64,000 bases of DNA from Tridacna crocea (lineage: Eukaryota; Mollusca; Bivalvia; Cardiida; Cardiidae). The notes beneath the pieces are model-generated. The model saw only the letters and a program-made list of their open reading frames with translations. It searched no databases and was not told the origin of the DNA. Every line of letters starts with the position of its first letter. The first letter of the stretch is position 1. The stretch is taken from positions 6,181,001 to 6,245,000 of the forward strand of contig OX031063.1 in the NCBI GenBank assembly GCA_943736015.1, given 5' to 3'. Both the position numbers and the translations under genes were made by a program. Below are positions 9,072 to 61,588 of this stretch, piece after piece.

Positions 9072-10297
9072 AATAAGAGGGCCAAGATGGCCCTGGACCC
9101 ACTCACTTGAATTTTTGAGATGACCATAGCCTATTTTTTTTGAGGTATTGAAACATTGGAACCAAAATTATTATTTTGCCAAGCAATTTTCTAAAGGTCA
9201 CCTGTAAAAGTCATTTCAAAATCTGAACATCAGTTTCAGAAAGAAGAATTTTTAAGAATTCATTTCCGTTTAAGTGCAAGTTAGCCCCCATTCACAAGAG
9301 CCATGTTTCTTGACGGATCAAAATTTTACCAACAAGCTTTGAAACGGGTCACCCAAGGAACATTGTTAAGAAATTCTTTTAAAATCTGACCAGGGTTTCA
9401 GAGAAAGAGAATTTTCAAGAATTTCATCATATCCATATAGTGCAAGTAGCCCCCATTCACAAGAGCCATGTTTCTTGATGAATCAAAATTATATGAACAA
9501 TTTTTGAAAAGGGTCACCCAAGGCACATTGCTTTGAAATTATTTTAAAATTTAACTGGGGGTTTCAGAGAAGAAGAATTTTCAAGAATTTCTTCATCTCT
9601 GTATAGTGTAAGTAGCCCCCAATCCCCAGAGCCTTGTTTCTAGATGCATCAAAATTTCGCGGATAATTTTGAAAAGGGTCACCCAAGGAACATCTCTGTG
9701 AAATTATTTCAAAATCTGTCCAGCCATTTCAGAGAAAAAGAATTTTCAAGAATTTCTTCATTTCCCTATAGTGCAAGTAGCCCCCATTCACCAGAACCAT
9801 GTTTCTTGACGAATCAAACTTTCGCGAACAATTTTAGGAAAGGGTCACCCAAAGAACATCCCTGAGAAACTATTTCAAAATCTGACCAGCTGTTTCAGAA
9901 AAGAAGAATTTTCAAAAATTTCTTCATTTCTGTAAAGTGCAAGTAGCCCCCATTCACCAAAGCCATGTTTCTTGACGGATCAAAATTTTGGGAACAACTT
10001 TTGAAAAGGGTCACCCAAGGAACATCTCTGTGACATTATTTTAAAATCTGGCCAGCGGTTTCAGAGAAGAAGATTTTTAAAGAATTTCTTAGAAAATTCC
10101 ATTTGGTTGCTATAGCAACCAGAATTTTTGATGGAATCAAATTCTGTGAACAATTTTTAAAGAGGACCTCCTAAGGAACATTCCAGCCAAGTTTGGTACA
10201 AATTGGCCCAGCGGTTAGGAGTTGATGTTTAAAGAATTGTTCACGACAGATGACAGACACCGGGTGATCCTCAAACGTTGTGCTCAGGTGAGCTAAA
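9072..10297. mobile_element. AGAGGGCC...GGTGAGCT interspersed repeat with internal array
   Basis: Starts AGAGGGCCAAGATGGCCCTG and ends CTCAGGTGAGCTAAAT. The middle (about 9220-10090) holds five to six units of about 165-180 bp sharing TTTCAGAGAAGAAGAATTTT, AGTAGCCCCCATTCAC, CATGTTTCTTGACG and GGGTCACCCAAGGAACAT. No transposase frame is seen. A relative without the array is at 23718-24527. Confidence 0.75.
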
Positions 10298-25551: not shown

Positions 25552-25850
25552 ATGATCAGCCTGCATAGCTCAGTTGGTAGTGCGTAGGACTTGTAATCAT
25601 GAGGATGTAGGTTCAGTCCCCACCGCTGGCCATCTAAAATTACTTATAGTCTTTCTGATGAGACTTTAACCAAGGTCCTGTGTGACGGTGCTAAACACAA
25701 ACACATTAAAGAACCTGGTGAGACTTAGAATGGGCTTTGTCCTGTATCTGCACTATCCCCTGTAACAATACCAACAGCCTTCAGGGGGGCGTTGCCCATA
25801 TGGGAAACCGGTGTCGACGATAAAGACAAATTCAATCAATCCCTCATATC
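25552..25850 (+). mobile_element. tRNA-derived SINE, family epsilon
   Basis: Head GCATAGCTCAGTTGGTAGTG (A box) and AGGTTCAGTCCC (B box), then a body with GGAAACCGGTGTCGACGATA and an AT-rich tail. About 295 bp. It is not a tRNA gene: the acceptor stem does not pair. Confidence 0.82.
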
Positions 25851-26680
25851 ATTTTGAGGTTAACTTTTCCCTCACATCACCAGGTTAACACCTTTTCCTC
25901 ACATCATTTTGAGGTTAACACGTCCCTCACATCATTTTGAGGTCAACACTTTTTCCTCACTTCAACTTCAGGTTAATACCTTTTCCACACATTATTTTGA
26001 GATTAACACTATCCCTCACATCATTTTGAGGTTAAAGCCTTTCCCTGACATTATTTTGAGGTTTACACTTTCCCTCACATTATTTTGAGGTTAACCCTTC
26101 CCTAAAATCACCTTCAGATTAAAGCTTTTCTCTCACATCATTTTGAGGTTAACACTTTCCCTCACATTATTTTGAGGTTAACCCTTCCCTAAAATCACCT
26201 TCAGATTAAAGCTTTTCTCTCACATCATTTTGAGGTTAACACTTTCCCCTCACATTATTTTGATGCAGACATTTAAACCCATTACCAGACGACAAAATTT
26301 TAACCTTGTCCATATTGAAAGCATTTGCAGACAACAATTTCAGTGTGGCTCAAATGGTTCAATTTTTCTTTGATAGGGGAGAAAACATTGTGGGAAAAGG
26401 AGAAAATGCTGGTTACCAGCATTTTCTCCTTTTCTCACAATGTTTTCAAAAGGCTTCTTTCCCAGGGGCATCAAAAGTCCGGACTGTGTGGTAAAGAGTT
26501 AACCTCACATCAATTCAAGGTCAACCCTTTCCTTTTGCATCATTCCAAGGTTAAAACTTTTTCTTTCATTATTTAGAGTTTAACACTTTTCCCACATCAT
26601 TTTGAACTTAACACATTTCCCTTGCATCATTTTGCGGATACCAATTTTCTCTTACATCATTTTAAGGTTAGCACCGTCTC
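25845..26680. repeat. ~30-bp minisatellite interrupted by a MITE
   Basis: About 20 units of TCATTTTGAGGTTAACACTT with TCCCTCACA. A block of about 90 bp is itself duplicated (26080-26175 and 26165-26250). A TTAA MITE (26273-26502) splits the array. Confidence 0.88.
26273..26502 (-). mobile_element. TTAA MITE class A, 230 bp, inside the minisatellite
   Basis: Complete. The GTTAAC in each minisatellite unit supplies TTAA target sites. Confidence 0.93.
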
Positions 26681-27650: not shown

Positions 27651-28906
27651 TGTAATGGATCATATTTTTTATAAGCTTATTCTTTCCAATGGCTTTCCAT
27701 TGTTAGTTGTTATTTGTCAGATTTGGAACTGGCATCAGGTGTCAAGGGACGTAACTCTCTTTAGCTGATCAGTCGATCAGTTTGATAGAGTTACTTCTCT
27801 TAGACTGGATTTGCATTTCAGTATTGCGAGAGTTATTCGCCTTTACTGAAGCTCTCCTTTTGCACGTGAAGTCCAATATGGATGCAGCAGGGAAGAGAAA
27901 ATTCCTGTTTAGTGGTCGAGAATGTGTAAACTATAGTGGTGCACAGGGTAATTATTGTCATTTTTGTGTGTTAAACACTTCTATATTTCAATCGCTTTGT
28001 CATACTTTGCTGTTGGACTTGAATAGGTGCATTTTGGAGTATTTAAGTTTATGATGACGTCATTTTGTTTAAACTGCTTGGAGGGAATTGATATAGAAAT
28101 CCCACTCTTTTCTATCAAAGCTGGAGTTTATAAGTCGTAAATAGAGTTTTAACCCTTATTCTGTCAAATAACTTCTGTTTAACATTTCAAGTATTCAGCA
28201 GAGACCTAGTTTTGCAATTTCCAAAACTTTTTTGGGAAAAGATAGGTCCTGATCAAAGACTGTGAATCTAGGATCAGAATGCATGTTCTGTGCAGTCTGA
28301 TCTTGATCTACAGTGTTTGCAAAGGGCGGTGAGTCATGTTTAGGGACTTAATATATGAGTTAACATTGTGGAGCAAGTGCCTTTTGTGCATGAGTCACTT
28401 TATTTCTATTGGTTCATGTGCATCAAGTTGTTGTATGCTTCTTGCTGCACATACAGATTAGTCTCAGGATTAGTGTAATCTTAGGCTTAGCTCTGCTATA
28501 GCCTGAGGAGTTTCATACTTTGTTGCAATATTTAACCTTTTTATTAGAATTTTAGACTGTCACAATTAATTGCACTTTTAACTGGAAGTACATGTATGAT
28601 GTTGAAAACATTTGAATATTCATTGTATAAAATTAGAAATACATTGTGGCAAATGAGACGGTTGCCTATTCAGAGCAATTGGTGCATTTGCCAAAATGCT
28701 TTTCCATAGATTTGGAGAAAACATTATCTTTGGGAAAGAATAAGAGATGAAAACATATAGTACATTGAATTTATTTGTATATTTCAGTTTTTTATGGAAT
28801 ATTTAACCATTAACTTTGCAAATAAAGTTATCCGGGAAAACATTGGTGTTATTAATAACAGAAGACCAAGAAGAGTCCCGGGGTTAGCTGTGTGTGATAC
28901 AGTACA
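27651..28906 (+). repeat. 5' LTR of the BEL/Pao element
   Basis: Begins TGTAATGG and ends AGTACA, with the TG...CA borders usual for LTRs. The small frame at 27782-28054 occurs identically in the 3' LTR and shows no known domain. A TTAACC...TTTAGACTG stretch and an imperfect CATTGTGGCAAA dyad near 28530-28745 resemble the local TTAA MITE. Confidence 0.96.
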
Positions 28907-28941
28907 ATAAAAAACCTTGCTTATTATAAGATTTACACATC

Positions 28942-35101: not shown

Positions 35102-36357
35102 TGTAATGGATCATATTTTTTATAAGCTTATTCTTTCCAATGGCTTTCCATTGTTAGTTGTTATTTGTCAGATTTGGAACTGGCATCAGGTGTCAAGGGA
35201 CGTAACTCTCTTTAGCTGATCAGTCGATCAGTTTGATAGAGTTACTTCTCTTAGACTGGATTTGCATTTCAGTATTGCGAGAGTTATTCGCCTTTACTGA
35301 AGCTCTCCTTTTGCACGTGAAGTCCAATATGGATGCAGCAGGGAAGAGAAAATTCCTGTTTAGTGGTCGAGAATGTGTAAACTATAGTGGTGCACAGGGT
35401 AATTATTGTCATTTTTGTGTGTTAAACACTTCTATATTTCAATCGCTTTGTCATACTTTGCTGTTGGACTTGAATAGGTGCATTTTGGAGTATTTAAGTT
35501 TATGATGACGTCATTTTGTTTAAACTGCTTGGAGGGAATTGATATAGAAATCCCACTCTTTTCTATCAAAGCTGGAGTTTATAAGTCGTAAATAGAGTTT
35601 TAACCCTTATTCTGTCAAATAACTTCTGTTTAACATTTCAAGTATTCAGCAGAGACCTAGTTTTGCAATTTCCAAAACTTTTTTGGGAAAAGATAGGTCC
35701 TGATCAAAGACTGTGAATCTAGGATCAGAATGCATGTTCTGTGCAGTCTGATCTTGATCTACAGTGTTTGCAAAGGGCGGTGAGTCATGTTTAGGGACTT
35801 AATATATGAGTTAACATTGTGGAGCAAGTGCCTTTTGTGCATGAGTCACTTTATTTCTATTGGTTCATGTGCATCAAGTTGTTGTATGCTTCTTGCTGCA
35901 CATACAGATTAGTCTCAGGATTAGTGTAATCTTAGGCTTAGCTCTGCTATAGCCTGAGGAGTTTCATACTTTGTTGCAATATTTAACCTTTTTATTAGAA
36001 TTTTAGACTGTCACAATTAATTGCACTTTTAACTGGAAGTACATGTATGATGTTGAAAACATTTGAATATTCATTGTATAAAATTAGAAATACATTGTGG
36101 CAAATGAGACGGTTGCCTATTCAGAGCAATTGGTGCATTTGCCAAAATGCTTTTCCATAGATTTGGAGAAAACATTATCTTTGGGAAAGAATAAGAGATG
36201 AAAACATATAGTACATTGAATTTATTTGTATATTTCAGTTTTTTATGGAATATTTAACCATTAACTTTGCAAATAAAGTTATCCGGGAAAACATTGGTGT
36301 TATTAATAACAGAAGACCAAGAAGAGTCCCGGGGTTAGCTGTGTGTGATACAGTACA
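35102..36357 (+). repeat. 3' LTR of the BEL/Pao element
   Basis: Same length and, by eye, the same sequence as 27651-28906. It is followed at once by the AGCCC target duplication. Confidence 0.97.
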
Positions 36358-36479
36358 AGCCCCGATTTATTTCCACAGAGATTGTCTCAATAACTTCTTG
36401 ACCTTTTTTATAATTCAAGTTAATACACATTACTTCCACTTCTGCTGACAGAATTCTGGGAATTCTTGCCACTCTTCAT

Positions 36480-48049: not shown

Positions 48050-48082
48050 ACTTAGAACAGAAATAAAGATTTTAACAGCATC
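48050..48082 (-). pseudogene. Short decayed copy of the 48.9-kb JIP exon end
   Basis: 33 bp match 48873-48905 at 28 positions. They cover the codons of DAVKFFISV and the donor region, where the splice GT is still preceded by A. Four of the five differences are C-to-T or G-to-A changes on one strand. It sits 0.8 kb downstream of the exon inside the long intron. The region around it (47909-48145) has an open frame but no further JIP homology. Confidence 0.55.
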
Positions 48083-48874: not shown

Positions 48875-49063
48875 CTGGAACGGAAATGAAGAATTTAACA
48901 GCATCTTTGTGTCCATGGAAGGAGAGCTGGGCTTGGGCCATTGTACAGTACGGTATAAAACTTCCTGGGGTGACACTGTCTGTTTTAGTATCACTGTAGA
49001 CCCGCACCAAACCCCCTGGTCTACCAACTTGTGATGCACCCATAGAAACTGCCTGCTTGTTGG
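48875..49063 (-). CDS. MAPK8IP3/SPAG9: JIP gene exon: RPG-VRVYSD...[11 protein letters not shown] segment
   Basis: 189 nt, acceptor cattttcag|CC, donor TTCCAG|gtatgt, phase 1 to phase 1. It encodes [20 protein letters not shown], then [18 protein letters not shown] and [16 protein letters not shown], matching human [33 protein letters not shown] and DAVKFFVAVPG. The next exon downstream is 45.5 kb away at 3356. Confidence 0.97.
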
Positions 49064-50205: not shown

Positions 50206-50319
50206 TTTCTGAAAGTGGCACTGATATAATGACTCCATTTCCTGTTCCGATCCACAGTCTGTTACATGAGATTAACATGGAGGTGATTCGAACAAACGAA
50301 AAACCTAGTTTACCAGTTC
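50206..50319 (-). CDS. MAPK8IP3/SPAG9: JIP gene exon: [13 protein letters not shown] segment
   Basis: 114 nt, acceptor tctttttcag|GA, donor CAGAAA|gtaagt, phase 1 to phase 1. It encodes [13 protein letters not shown] then [20 protein letters not shown]. Human has [13 protein letters not shown] and [20 protein letters not shown]. The trailing A joins CC at 49063 to make the threonine of TNK. Confidence 0.97.
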
Positions 50320-51735: not shown

Positions 51736-51933
<198 letters not shown>

Positions 51934-53740: not shown

Positions 53741-53942
53741 CTTTATCATGCAGACCTGTGCCTCAAATGACATTGGTTGTGGATCAATCACAAGCAATTT
53801 TGTTCTCATATTCACACCAGACAAGTTCATTTGAAACCACAGTCATACAAAATGTAATGGAATGCAATGGAGTCTAAAACTGGGTCTATAGTGTGTGAAC
53901 AATACCAGAAAGGAGCTGTGACATACAAAAGTAAATTCTCAC

Positions 53943-55014
53943 CTCTATTGACATGGACTGGGGATCAACCACATGTGTTTTGTTCTTATAACCACACCAA
54001 CCATGTTTACTGACTATCACAGACATACCTACCTCTATTGACATGGACTGGGGATCAACCACATGTATTTTGTTCTTATAACCACACCAAACATGTTTAC
54101 TGGCTATCACAGACATACCTACCTCTATTGACATGGACTGGGGATCAACCACATGTATTTTGTACTTATAACCACACCAAACATGTTTATTGGCTATCAC
54201 AGACATACCTACCTCTATTGACATGGACTGTGGATCCACCACATGTATTTTGTTCTTATAACCACACCAAACATGTTTATTAGCTATCAGAGACATACCT
54301 ACCTCTATTGACATGGACTGGGGATCAACCACATGTATTTTGTTCTTATAACCACACCAAACATGTTTACTGGCTATCACAGACATACCTACCTCTATTG
54401 ACATGGACTGGGGATCAACCACATGTATTTTGTTCTTATGACCAAACATGTTTATTAGCTATCACAGACATACCTACCTCTATTGACATGGACTGTGGAT
54501 CAACCACATGTATTTTGTTTTTTATAACCACACCAAACATGTTTATTGGCTATCACAGTCATACCTACCTCTATTGACATGGACTGGGGATCAACCACAT
54601 GTATTTTGTTCTCATAACCAAACATGTTTATTGGCTATCACAGACATACCTACCTCTATTGACATGGACTGTGGATCAACCACATGTATTTTGTTTTTTA
54701 TAACCACACCAAACATGTTTATTGGCTATCACAGACATACCTACCTCTATTGACATGGACTGGGGATCAACCACATGTATTTTGTTCTTATAACCACACC
54801 AAACATGTTTATTGGCTATCACAGACATACCTACCTCTATTGACATGGACTGGGGATCCACCACATGTATTTTGTTCTTATAACCACACCAACCATGTTT
54901 ATTGGCTATCACAGACATACCTACCTCTATTGACATGGACTGGGGATCAACCACATGTATTTTGTTCTTATAACCACACCAAACATGTTTATTGGCTATC
55001 ACAGACATACAGCG
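53943..55014 (-). repeat. 12-unit tandem array of an exon tail plus its splice donor
   Basis: Units in gene order end at 54925, 54835, 54745, 54654, 54569, 54478, 54393, 54303, 54213, 54123, 54033 and 53943. Spacing is 90 bp except for two 91+85 bp dimers (units 4-5 and 6-7), so a short higher-order repeat exists. Each unit is GTAGGT plus 84 bp of the exon, reading [19 protein letters not shown] then [11 protein letters not shown]. Every unit carries a GAG|gtaggt donor; the last, at 53943, has GAG|gtgaga. The reading frame is open through units 1 to 3 and closes in unit 4 because of the 91-bp spacing. No unit has its own acceptor. Unit-to-unit identity looks above 90%, so the expansion is recent or is homogenised. 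Confidence 0.95.
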
Positions 55015-55076
55015 TATGGAATGGTGTGGTTTACCTAGGTCCAGTAAGTGGTAATTCTGTAAGTCCCATTGTCCAT
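54925..55076 (-). CDS. MAPK8IP3/SPAG9: JIP gene exon: DGQWDL...WCGY segment, start of the exon-tail array
   Basis: 152 nt, acceptor cttggcag|AT, donor ATAGAG|gtaggt, phase 1 to phase 0. It encodes [20 protein letters not shown], then [19 protein letters not shown] and [11 protein letters not shown]. Human has [20 protein letters not shown] and VWCGYRNKIYVV. The human continuation IEK|SFDAH fits the next exon starting KSFDAH, so a donor after SIE is right in protein terms. The last 84 bases recur 11 more times downstream, each with its own GT, so which donor is used in vivo is open. A class C MITE ends 71 bp upstream of the acceptor. Confidence 0.93.
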
Positions 55077-56180: not shown

Positions 56181-56248
56181 CTTTATCTCTATGGAATATT
56201 GCAACTGTCCCATTGGCCAAGGCAGCTAGTACTCTACCTTTTACATGA
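56181..56248 (-). CDS. MAPK8IP3/SPAG9: JIP gene exon: HVKG...AIFHR segment
   Basis: 68 nt, acceptor gtctatttcag|T, donor ATAAAG|gtaaat, phase 2 to phase 1. It encodes HVKGRVLAALANGTVAIFHR then DK, matching human HVKGIVLVALADGTLAIFHR. This is a beta-propeller blade. The final G joins AT at 55076 to make the aspartate of DGQWDL. Confidence 0.95.
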
Positions 56249-56921: not shown

Positions 56922-57002
56922 ACAATATTCAAAATTGAGTCCCGCAACTTCACTGAATGCAAACATTTCTTCCACTGCGATACTGATGAATGGACATACA
57001 AA
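56922..57002 (-). CDS. MAPK8IP3/SPAG9: JIP gene exon: LYVHSSV...QW segment
   Basis: 81 nt, acceptor atatatttcag|T, donor TTGT|gtaaga, phase 2 to phase 2. It encodes [16 protein letters not shown] then [10 protein letters not shown]. Human JIP3 has LYVHSSVAQWRKCLHS then IKLKDSILSI at the same place, so the match is nearly residue for residue. The first base completes the serine codon from 57567 and the last two bases begin the valine finished at 56248. Confidence 0.95.
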
Positions 57003-57301
57003 CTGAAATATATTTCAATAGCGTTTAAAAGTTATTCAACAGTGTCATGTTTGGAAGTGACAATGTATCGGCATCAAAACATATCTGCATGAAACATACA
57101 TGCTTAATACATGTATACACTTATTTAGCATGCTATGCCGTCTTATCTTGGATGTCCCCATAATTAAGTATATGGTCAAAAACATTTTTAACTGAAGTAA
57201 AATTCCATTAGCATTAATTCAATAATTTTTCAGAATGTATGGAAATTGACACAAACAATTTATTTACAACATTCTAAGGGAGCTTTTAACTTAACCTTTA
57301 T

Positions 57302-57410
57302 TACAATTTACCTCCGACTTTGAGCCCCCATCCACTTGGTGGACAGGACATTGCTTGATTTCTCCACCTCTTCATTCTATATATTACCTCCTTATGCCAT
57401 AGCAATTATT
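57302..57410 (-). pseudogene. Downstream copy of the 3' end of the 57.6-kb JIP exon
   Basis: About 110 bp aligns without large gaps to 57558-57667, the exon's last ~100 bases plus the start of its intron, with roughly ten to fifteen substitutions by eye. The GT donor with its GGAG|gtaaat context is kept and the exon frame is still open here (ending WMGAQSR). The 5' part of the exon and its acceptor are absent, so this cannot act as a free exon. It could only be reached as an alternative donor if the exon read through about 260 bp. Confidence 0.8.
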
Positions 57411-57437: not shown

Positions 57438-57500
57438 ACTTACCTCCTTTTTTGAGCCTGCTATCAACATAGATGCCAGGACAAGACTTAATTTTTTGTT
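57438..57500 (-). pseudogene. Second, more decayed copy of the same exon tail
   Basis: Starts with the donor complement (ttacctcc...ttgagcc) and then follows the exon tail at 57561-57610 with many substitutions. It lies between the exon and the better-preserved copy at 57302. The homology is short and weak. Confidence 0.5.
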
Positions 57501-57566: not shown

Positions 57567-57798
57567 CTCCCACTTTGAGCCCCCATCCACATGGTGGGCA
57601 GGACACTGCTTGATTTCTCCGCCTCCTCATTCTGTATATTACTACCTGATGCCAGAGCATTAATACCATCCTTCACCATTTCTGAGGGCTCCTTAAGGAG
57701 ACGTCTACTGGCAATAGCTCCTGATACTTCAGGTGTGGCTGTACCAGAGGACACTGGCGAGCCTCTGGCTTTAAATACTGTTGGCTGAGTTACCTCTC
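57567..57798 (-). CDS. MAPK8IP3/SPAG9: JIP gene exon: linker and first propeller strand
   Basis: 232 nt. The acceptor follows a strong pyrimidine tract (ttttttttcccctcat...aaag|GA) and the donor is GGGAG|gtaaat. It runs from phase 1 to phase 2. The product goes from a Ser/Thr-rich linker (PVSSGTATPEVSG) into EKSSSVLPTMWMGAQSG, which matches human JIP3 KMSSLLPTMWLGAQNG. The last serine codon is completed by the first base of the exon at 57002. Two decayed copies of this exon's 3' end lie downstream, at 57302-57410 and 57438-57500. Confidence 0.93.
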
Positions 57799-58250: not shown

Positions 58251-58350
58251 AACTCTTTACCGAATTACAAAATTTTGGATTAGTCCAAACTGAAAGCATT
58301 TGCAGACAACAAAATAAATGTGAATAAAAGCATGAAATTTTATTTGGAAA
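58251..58350 (-). mobile_element. TTAA MITE left half, continuing into a minisatellite
   Basis: TTAACTCTTTACCGAATTAC ... ATTTTATTTGGAAAGG, then 32-bp repeats begin where the core should stand. A very worn copy lies at 58070-58250. Confidence 0.8.
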
Positions 58351-58800
58351 GGCCATTTTTAGGCTTATAACCAATGATGAAAGGCCATTTTTAGACTTAA
58401 AACCAATTATGAAAGGCCATTTTAAGACTTTACACCAATTATGAAAGGACATTTTCAGACTTAGAACCAATTATGAAAGGGCATTTCTAGACTTTAAACC
58501 AATTATGAAAGGCCATTTTTAGGCTTAAAACCAATTACGAAAGGCCATTTTTAGACTCGACACCAATTATGAAAGGCCATTTGTAGACTTAAAACCAATT
58601 ATGAATGGCCATTTTTAGACTTAAAAACCAATTATGAAAGGCCATTTTTAGACTTTACATCAACTATGAAAGGCTATTCCTAGACTTAAAACCAAGATGA
58701 AAGGACATTTCTAGACATTAAACCAATTATGAAAGGCTATTTTTAGACTTAAAACCAATTATGGAAGGCCATTTGTAGACTTTAAACCAATCATTGCCAT
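58345..58800. repeat. 32-bp minisatellite, ~14 units
   Basis: Unit AAAGGCCATTTTTAGACTTA + AAACCAATTATG. Degenerate relatives (CTTTTAGACTTACCATCAAT style) continue to about 59330. Confidence 0.92.
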
Positions 58801-60946: not shown

Positions 60947-61155
60947 TTAACTCTTTGCTGCACAATGGGGACTTTCAACGACTCGGGAAAGACACATTTT
61001 GAAAACATTGTGGGAAAGGGAGAAAATGCTGGTTACCAGCATTTTTTGCCTTTCCCACAATGTTTTCTACTCTATCAAAGAAAAATTGAAATTGACGACT
61101 GCAAATGCTTTCAATTTGGGCAAGGCTACAATTTTGTCGTCTGGTGAAGGATTAA
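60947..61155 (+). mobile_element. TTAA MITE class A, 209 bp
   Basis: Core GCTGGTTACCAGCATTTTTTGCC is flipped relative to the plus-type body. The right end CTGGTGAAGGATTAA runs into a 73-bp tandem array. Confidence 0.9.
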
Positions 61156-61588
61156 AAGCTCTTTAATAATTACGGCTTAAGCAAGAGTTCCTTTTAAAAT
61201 GACTGTAATTGTGATAAAGAAGGATTAAAAGATCTTTAATAATTACGGCTTAAGCAAGAGTTCCTTTTAAAATGACTGCAATTGTGATAAAGAAGGATTA
61301 AAAGCCCTTTAATAATTACGACTTAAGCAAGAGTTCCTTTTAAAATGACTGTAATTGTGATAAAGAAGGATTAAAAGCTCTTTAATAATTACGGCTTAAG
61401 CAAGAGTTCCTTTTAAAATGACTGCAATTGTGATAAAGAAGGATTAAAAGATCTTTAATAATTACGGCTTAAGCAAGAGTTCCTTTTAAAATGACTGCAA
61501 TTGTGATAAAGAAGGATTAAAAGCTCTTTAATAATTACGGCTTAAGCAAGAGTTCCTTTTAAAATGACTGCAATTGTGATAAAGAAGT
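61151..61588. repeat. 73-bp tandem repeat, six units
   Basis: Units start at 61151, 61224, 61297, 61370, 61443 and 61516. Each is ATTAAAAGCTCTTTAATAAT ... GACTGCAATTGTGATAAAGA with one to three changes. The phrase GAAGGATTAA at each joint equals the MITE end at 61146-61155. Confidence 0.96.

Follow-up and report, generated by a model that had tools for sequence, protein, structure and literature searches.

Why does the end of one exon of a scaffold gene stand twelve times in a row where its intron begins, each time with a splice donor, and which of these donors is used to make the mRNA? The question is raised by positions 53943 to 55076 of a stretch of 64,000 nucleotides of Tridacna crocea DNA (the window).

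On its minus strand the window contains the 3' portion of a JIP3/4 (MAPK8IP3/SPAG9) scaffold gene, the 5' portion of which, with the RH1 and leucine-zipper half, falls outside. Spliced in silico, seven exons of this strand give an open frame of 335 residues, on the assumption that 57798-57567 contributes its first two bases to the preceding codon. In the order of transcription they are Eb (57567 to 57798, last base 57567, donor GAG/gtaaattg, where a slash marks a splice boundary), 56922 to 57002, Ed (56181 to 56248), Ee (54925 to 55076), Ef (51762 to 51933, acceptor ...tcattag), 50206 to 50319 and Eh (48875 to 49063). The spliced fragment matches the Pfam family WD40_2 (PF19056, E 2.4e-42), and clam JIP4 proteins align to the exons in collinear order; propeller and collinearity together identify a JIP3/4 gene. 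Among the best matches, identity is 90% to the JIP of Mactra antiquata and 89% to that of Mercenaria over the 335-residue fragment, and 85% to those of Mya, Dreissena and Ruditapes. The exon under study, Ee, is a WD40-propeller exon of 152 nt bounded by the acceptor ...cttggcag/ATGGACAATGG and by donor 1, GAG/gtaggtat. It is 89% identical to Mercenaria JIP4 in tblastn and splices cleanly with the preceding exon, Ed, and the following one, Ef, both of which have protein matches of their own. The WD40-like JIP3/4 exon of the initial annotation, with its two neighbours, is thereby borne out. An exon near 3.3 kb is also matched by both clam proteins shown, and one near 62.7 kb by P0125 alone. The intron that follows Eh would measure about 45 kb (3357 to 48874), since no JIP exon was matched before 3.36 kb, a length that is derived from the matches of two clam proteins, by which small exons may have been missed. 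No solved structure matched a 146-residue fragment at E up to 1, and no Rfam family reached its gathering score between 50000 and 60000.

The array is made up of twelve tandem units, each composed of the last 86 nt of exon Ee (55010 to 54925) and of a 4-nt junction, GTAG, and every one of them ends GAG/GT. A tandem-repeat finder (TRF) delimits it at 53941 to 55010, with a period of 90, 12.0 copies and 93% matches. The last exon-like bases of the units are 54925, 54835, 54745, 54654, 54569, 54478, 54393, 54303, 54213, 54123, 54033 and 53943, corresponding to spacings of 90, 90, 91, 85, 91 and 85, then 90 five times. The initial annotation had reported twelve units here, mostly spaced by 90 bp, and seven of the spacings do have this value; it had also recognized that what was amplified is the exon's tail together with the donor, which the unit ends and the alignment confirm. 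Its definition of the unit as 84 bases plus GTAGGT is an equivalent phasing of the same repeat, 86 nt plus GTAG being the more exact one.

The alignment of the units, all on the minus strand, allows their relationships to be followed. Unit 1 (54925 to 55010), the founding exon tail, encodes 28 residues. Unit 2 (54835 to 54920) departs from it by one valine-to-glycine and one silent change, and unit 3 (54745 to 54830) is identical to unit 1; both are in frame. Unit 4 (54654 to 54740) has a 1-nt insertion and contains a stop at 54678, and unit 5 (54569 to 54649) has a 5-nt deletion. Unit 6 (54478 to 54564) shows a single difference from unit 4, while unit 7 (54393 to 54473) carries the 5-nt deletion of unit 5, from which it differs at three places. 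Units 8 to 11 follow at 54388-54303, 54298-54213, 54208-54123 and 54118-54033, and unit 12 (53943 to 54028) ends with a donor unlike the others, GAG/gtgagaat. On average, two units differ by 3.2 substitutions per 86 nt, and two pairs (1 and 3, 8 and 11) are identical. The 11-mer GAGGTAGGTAT occurs 11 times in the window, always within the array, against 0.04 expected from shuffled sequences. Farther into the intron, a decayed thirteenth copy (53762 to 53849, minus strand) is still 76% identical to the exon tail, its frame being broken and its donor lost (blastn E 4e-12; score 73, against a best of 32 among 100 shuffles). Searches for more decayed units directly past donor 12 or the thirteenth copy gave no significant score (reached by 644, 263 and 333 of 1000 shuffles).

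A minisatellite is a tandem array of units of roughly 10 to 100 bp with high identity, and the array, with its period of 90, 12.0 copies and 93% matches, is one. Given the 3.2 differences per 86 nt and the two identical pairs, it is plausible that the number of units varies between individuals. The window has further tandem arrays at 9213-10090, 25840-26263, 58347-58791 and 61146-61587, each with about 5 to 15 units; none of the four overlaps a matched JIP exon.

What would each donor produce? With donors 1, 2 and 3 the frame stays open and the product gains 0, 30 and 60 residues, respectively, as initially proposed. The same proposal held that the donors fall out of frame from unit 4 on. The outcome is as foreseen but the reason is not, because donor 6, which adds 447 nt, restores the phase and would still be non-productive, the in-frame stop at 54678, which precedes all of donors 4 to 12, being encountered first. 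Hence, it is this stop and not phase alone that splits donors 1 to 3 from the rest. Moreover, the first eleven junctions carry a second GT 4 nt further (GAG/GTAG/GTATGT). At donors 1 to 3, use of the shifted GT leads to a stop in the next exon; at donors 4 to 11, the shifted GT lies behind the stop at 54678.

The donors were also compared by their predicted pairing with the 5' end of U1, pseudouridines being handled as U and the JIP donors being placed by the conserved frame. Donors 1 to 11, which share GAG/GTAGGTAT, have a predicted energy of -12.3 kcal/mol and donor 12, GAG/GTGAGAATTT, one of -9.7 kcal/mol. The 4-nt-shifted site of donor 1 is predicted at -6.7 kcal/mol, and the six other scored JIP donors range from -4.3 to -10.5 kcal/mol. 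Only 12 of the 6832 GT sites on both strands of the window reach -12.3: the eleven array donors, donor 1 included, and a site in the middle copy of Eb's tail, which is described below. Consensus-like intronic donors placed behind an in-frame stop are found at donors 4 to 12 and at 57444 and 57312, after exon Eb; this is one feature of latent donors (SOS), sites which normally stay silent and become active under stress.

We consider it likely that tandem duplication across the 5' splice site made this intron grow and that donor 1 makes nearly all of the normal mRNA. The last donor differs from the other eleven, and these borrow the letters of the next copy, so that the simplest order of events starts from GTGAGA. 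Donor 12 is therefore the probable ancestral exon-intron boundary, a status assigned from its odd sequence and not from an outgroup genome. From this single ancestral donor, a duplication would have crossed the 5' splice site of Ee, from a left break within the exon, 86 nt in, to a right break close behind the start of the intron. The new junction would then read GAG/GTAG/GTATG, where the start of the second copy, the exon letters GTATG, has become the intron side of the first donor. In this way the junction would have created GTAGGTAT, a donor with better predicted U1 pairing than the ancestral GTGAGA at the same position, and would have spread with the units. Since the new and more strongly pairing donor stands at the old exon end, the protein would have remained unchanged and the first duplication would have been tolerated. 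The array may have reached twelve units through additional rounds of slippage or unequal exchange, one of which would have copied two units at once (4-5 to 6-7); the insertion and the deletion shared in the same order by units 4-5 and 6-7 point to such a duplication.

As to donor use, we infer that the normal mRNA comes almost entirely from donor 1, since the exon opened by the acceptor is shortest when it ends there. Donors 2 and 3 may yield rare products with 30 or 60 more residues. mRNAs with early stops decay, and donors 4 to 12 would either be silent or give mRNAs that are destroyed, with the stop at 54678. When identical donors compete, on the other hand, the intron-proximal one is favored if U1 occupancy is high; such a preference would favor donor 11 or 12 and thus counts against donor 1 as the main site. 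The duplication reading accounts for the unit, the donor sequences, the seemingly unconstrained drift of the copies, the stop, the decayed relic and the second exon concerned, and the other minisatellites of the window were counted for it as well. The array is most likely a case of neutral intron growth, and the evidence would also fit mild harm. Neutral growth with competing donors had been named in the initial annotation as the alternative to a functional module, and the array, the drift of the units and the proteins of relatives all speak for it. We do not class the array as an intron gain; the intron is most likely an old one that was enlarged.

Exon Eb would have been struck earlier by an event of the same kind. 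A diverged middle copy of its tail (57440 to 57494, minus strand) ends with a donor-like GAG/gtaagtaa, whose last exon-like base is 57444. Its score of 48 was reached by none of 1000 shuffles, the best of which attained 36, and the predicted U1 pairing of its donor is -12.3, vs. -6.9 for Eb's own donor. A third copy (57298 to 57408, minus strand) comprises the tail, the donor (57312) and 14 nt of intron, with 98 of 111 aligned columns identical; a copy of Eb extending far into the intron was not significant (283 of 1000 shuffles). When the frame is read past the donor of Eb, a TAA begins right at the junction. As the strong donor of Eb is a downstream copy, this exon supports recurrence of the event, not a rule by which every junction makes the first donor stronger. 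A weak match to the tail of Eh (48055 to 48082, minus strand; 25 of 28 nt, blastn E 8e-4 for 26 nt) sits about 800 bp downstream of exon 49063-48875, in its own intron.

A scan of the tails and heads of nine exons, with flanking intron of at most 2.5 kb per side, 100 shuffles and only approximate ends for exon Ea, places these cases in the context of the gene. Tails exceeded all 100 shuffles in the downstream intron for three of the nine exons (Eb, Ee without the array, and Eh, weakly), and heads in the upstream intron for none of nine; the reverse-complement controls gave 0 of 18. One tail of nine also passed the shuffles in the upstream intron (Ef, 17 nt), as did one head of nine in the downstream intron (Ee, where the head query includes most of the repeated tail). 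The bias of tails over heads is not significant (Fisher P 0.21, or 0.47 without the weak Eh case), and for this reason it is only a lead. It is thus tentatively, and with more doubt than confidence, that we propose that exon tails with their donors, and not heads with acceptors, have repeatedly been copied into the following intron, resulting in one-sided intron growth in this lineage. What would permit such growth is that the exon stays whole when its donor is copied downstream of the existing one; the growth would at times also protect itself, the junction making a stronger donor.

Could the array instead have been retained for the donors themselves, as a regulatory decoy that cuts JIP output via stop-containing products or that collects U1 at the start of the intron? 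This is unlikely. Of the window's twelve best-pairing sites, eleven are indeed donors of the array and the twelfth is a donor in the tail copied from the other exon, and early stops result from nine of the twelve donors and from all eleven 4-nt-shifted sites. However, the copying of one junction is enough to account for eleven of these twelve best sites, and conservation of the donor core is within chance: neither the absence of change in the 11-nt core across units (P 0.15) nor the longest change-free stretch, of 27 nt (P 0.09), is significant.

The other possibility put forward in the initial annotation, a length-variable splice-choice module, is quite improbable and was not upheld; in this reading, donors 1 to 3 would be chosen by tissue or individual so as to add 0, 30 or 60 residues to the propeller. 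In its favor, neither a stop nor a frameshift interrupts units 2 and 3, unit 3 being equal to unit 1, and the 90-nt period preserves the frame; nevertheless, a frame-keeping period arises by chance one time in three. The proteins of relatives bear on it directly. The 240 relatives compared, among which isoforms of a single species are numerous, are the best 120 of 262 and the best 120 of 4498 matches. The exon pair was matched in 238 of them (two had no match) and its junction was spanned in the best alignment in 236, two further relatives not spanning it. None of the 236 spanning proteins contains a copied unit at the junction, and donor 1 alone gives the form of the protein seen in relatives. 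Candidate carriers of an insert were rejected: in P0228 and P0052 nearly the whole exon is present a second time, but at another place of the protein, and P0117 shows 20 gap positions around the junction, where its letters are unrelated to the unit. A query with a two-copy junction returned 63 proteins, none of which covered it with two copies of the unit; coverage was 41%, which equals one copy, for 61 of them, and 59% for P0241 and P0040, where the WCGY motif occurs once. The protein database is clustered at 90% identity, so that rare insert-bearing isoforms could be hidden in it.

Two further observations argue against a choice among donors 1 to 3 for the sake of the protein. First, the units show no sign of coding constraint in their drift. 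They differ by 15 distinct changes (13 substitutions and 2 indels), the junction letters proper to donor 12 being left out of the substitution count. In the exon frame, nine of the substitutions change an amino acid and four are silent, where 19% silent changes are expected without constraint; no coding constraint on units 2 to 12 is visible in these numbers. Second, in the structural model of a Dreissena relative, P0126 (mean pLDDT 84-95 in blocks across 481-530, 58 for the whole model), the unit corresponds to residues 487 to 514, running from the end of strand a through b and c into the first part of strand d of one blade, and it lacks the 12 residues leading to the next strand at 527. According to this model, an inserted unit would form a blade that is all but complete yet has no link to the following one, and its folding is putative.

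An assembly artefact is very unlikely, since, even if long tandem arrays are difficult to assemble, the units carry 15 distinct changes with shared sub-patterns, and the decayed copy and the second exon bear witness to earlier events of this type; the number of units in the assembly could nonetheless be inexact. The least probable idea, that each 85-91-nt unit is spliced as a mini-intron after intron gain by tandem duplication, is suggested by the AG/GT that closes all twelve units and by a mechanism documented in the literature, but the array is already intronic and, by eye, its units have no clear pyrimidine tract before the AG and contain earlier AGs.

The kinds of component that make up the favored account, tandem-duplication intron change, tandem donors and latent donors behind stops, are already known. 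Tandem duplication across or near splice signals is described as an established route of intron change (PMC4974935, PMC3443670). In the potato RdRp gene, a tandem duplication of exon sequence with splice signals likewise crossed an intron-exon boundary (PMC4974935), and tandem duplication of exon sequence with splice signals is also considered in a review (PMC3443670). In the potato case as reported, however, the 3' boundary of the intron was duplicated and a new intron resulted (PMC4974935), whereas in the clam the 5' boundary is repeated to twelve units, an existing intron is enlarged and donors are multiplied. In the fission-yeast genes SPOG_01682 and SOCG_00815, introns are similarly reported to consist of tandem repeats (24-nt) of the adjoining exon, with proto-splice sites (PMC3629103); those introns are reported as gained, whereas the clam intron is most likely old and has a full donor in each unit. 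The donor pairs 4 nt apart at eleven junctions resemble GYNNGY tandem 5' splice sites (PMC4267661), the alternative use of which is described there as primarily noise and secondarily regulation, mostly through decay. GYNNGY sites are pairs 4 nt apart, whereas in the clam the pair is itself repeated and the main spacing is 85-91 nt. Finally, strong downstream donors behind an in-frame stop are known from work on Suppression of Splicing and latent 5' splice sites (PMC3510495, PMC8996931), in which a preceding stop is reported for over 98% of the latent sites (PMC3510495). Their counterparts in the clam are donors 4 to 12 and both copies after exon Eb. Unlike latent sites, donors 2 and 3 have the same core without a prior stop, and represent an inner control. 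Searches of open-licence papers listed no twelve-unit array in which each unit has a complete donor, three of the donors being in frame and the other nine after a stop; this is weak evidence that there is no precedent.

Choice among equal 5' splice sites is usually studied with built constructs. The array is a natural competition between twelve donors in which frame and distance vary and sequence hardly does: eleven donors share their 11-nt core and nearly all of the 80 nt upstream, and differ in their distance from the acceptor and in the presence of a prior stop. Counts of donor use would show whether usage declines gradually with distance, as under exon definition, or drops abruptly between donors 3 and 4, which would mean frame sensing or decay of stop-bearing mRNA. 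The array also illustrates how an intron can enlarge from its own exon with the protein unchanged.

Other repeats were noticed in the window. Short hairpin-forming repeats, with arms like GTGGGAAAAGGAGAAA and TTTCTCCTTTTCCCAC, were seen by eye at about 55309-55261, 53446-53399 and 53010-52962; similar stretches recur in the translations of the window, and the repeats are perhaps a small family of mobile elements. A direct repeat of 1257 bp, 100% identical and on the same strand, occurs at 27651-28907 and 35102-36358, about 6.2 kb apart, and may reflect a recent duplication, a mobile element or an assembly effect.
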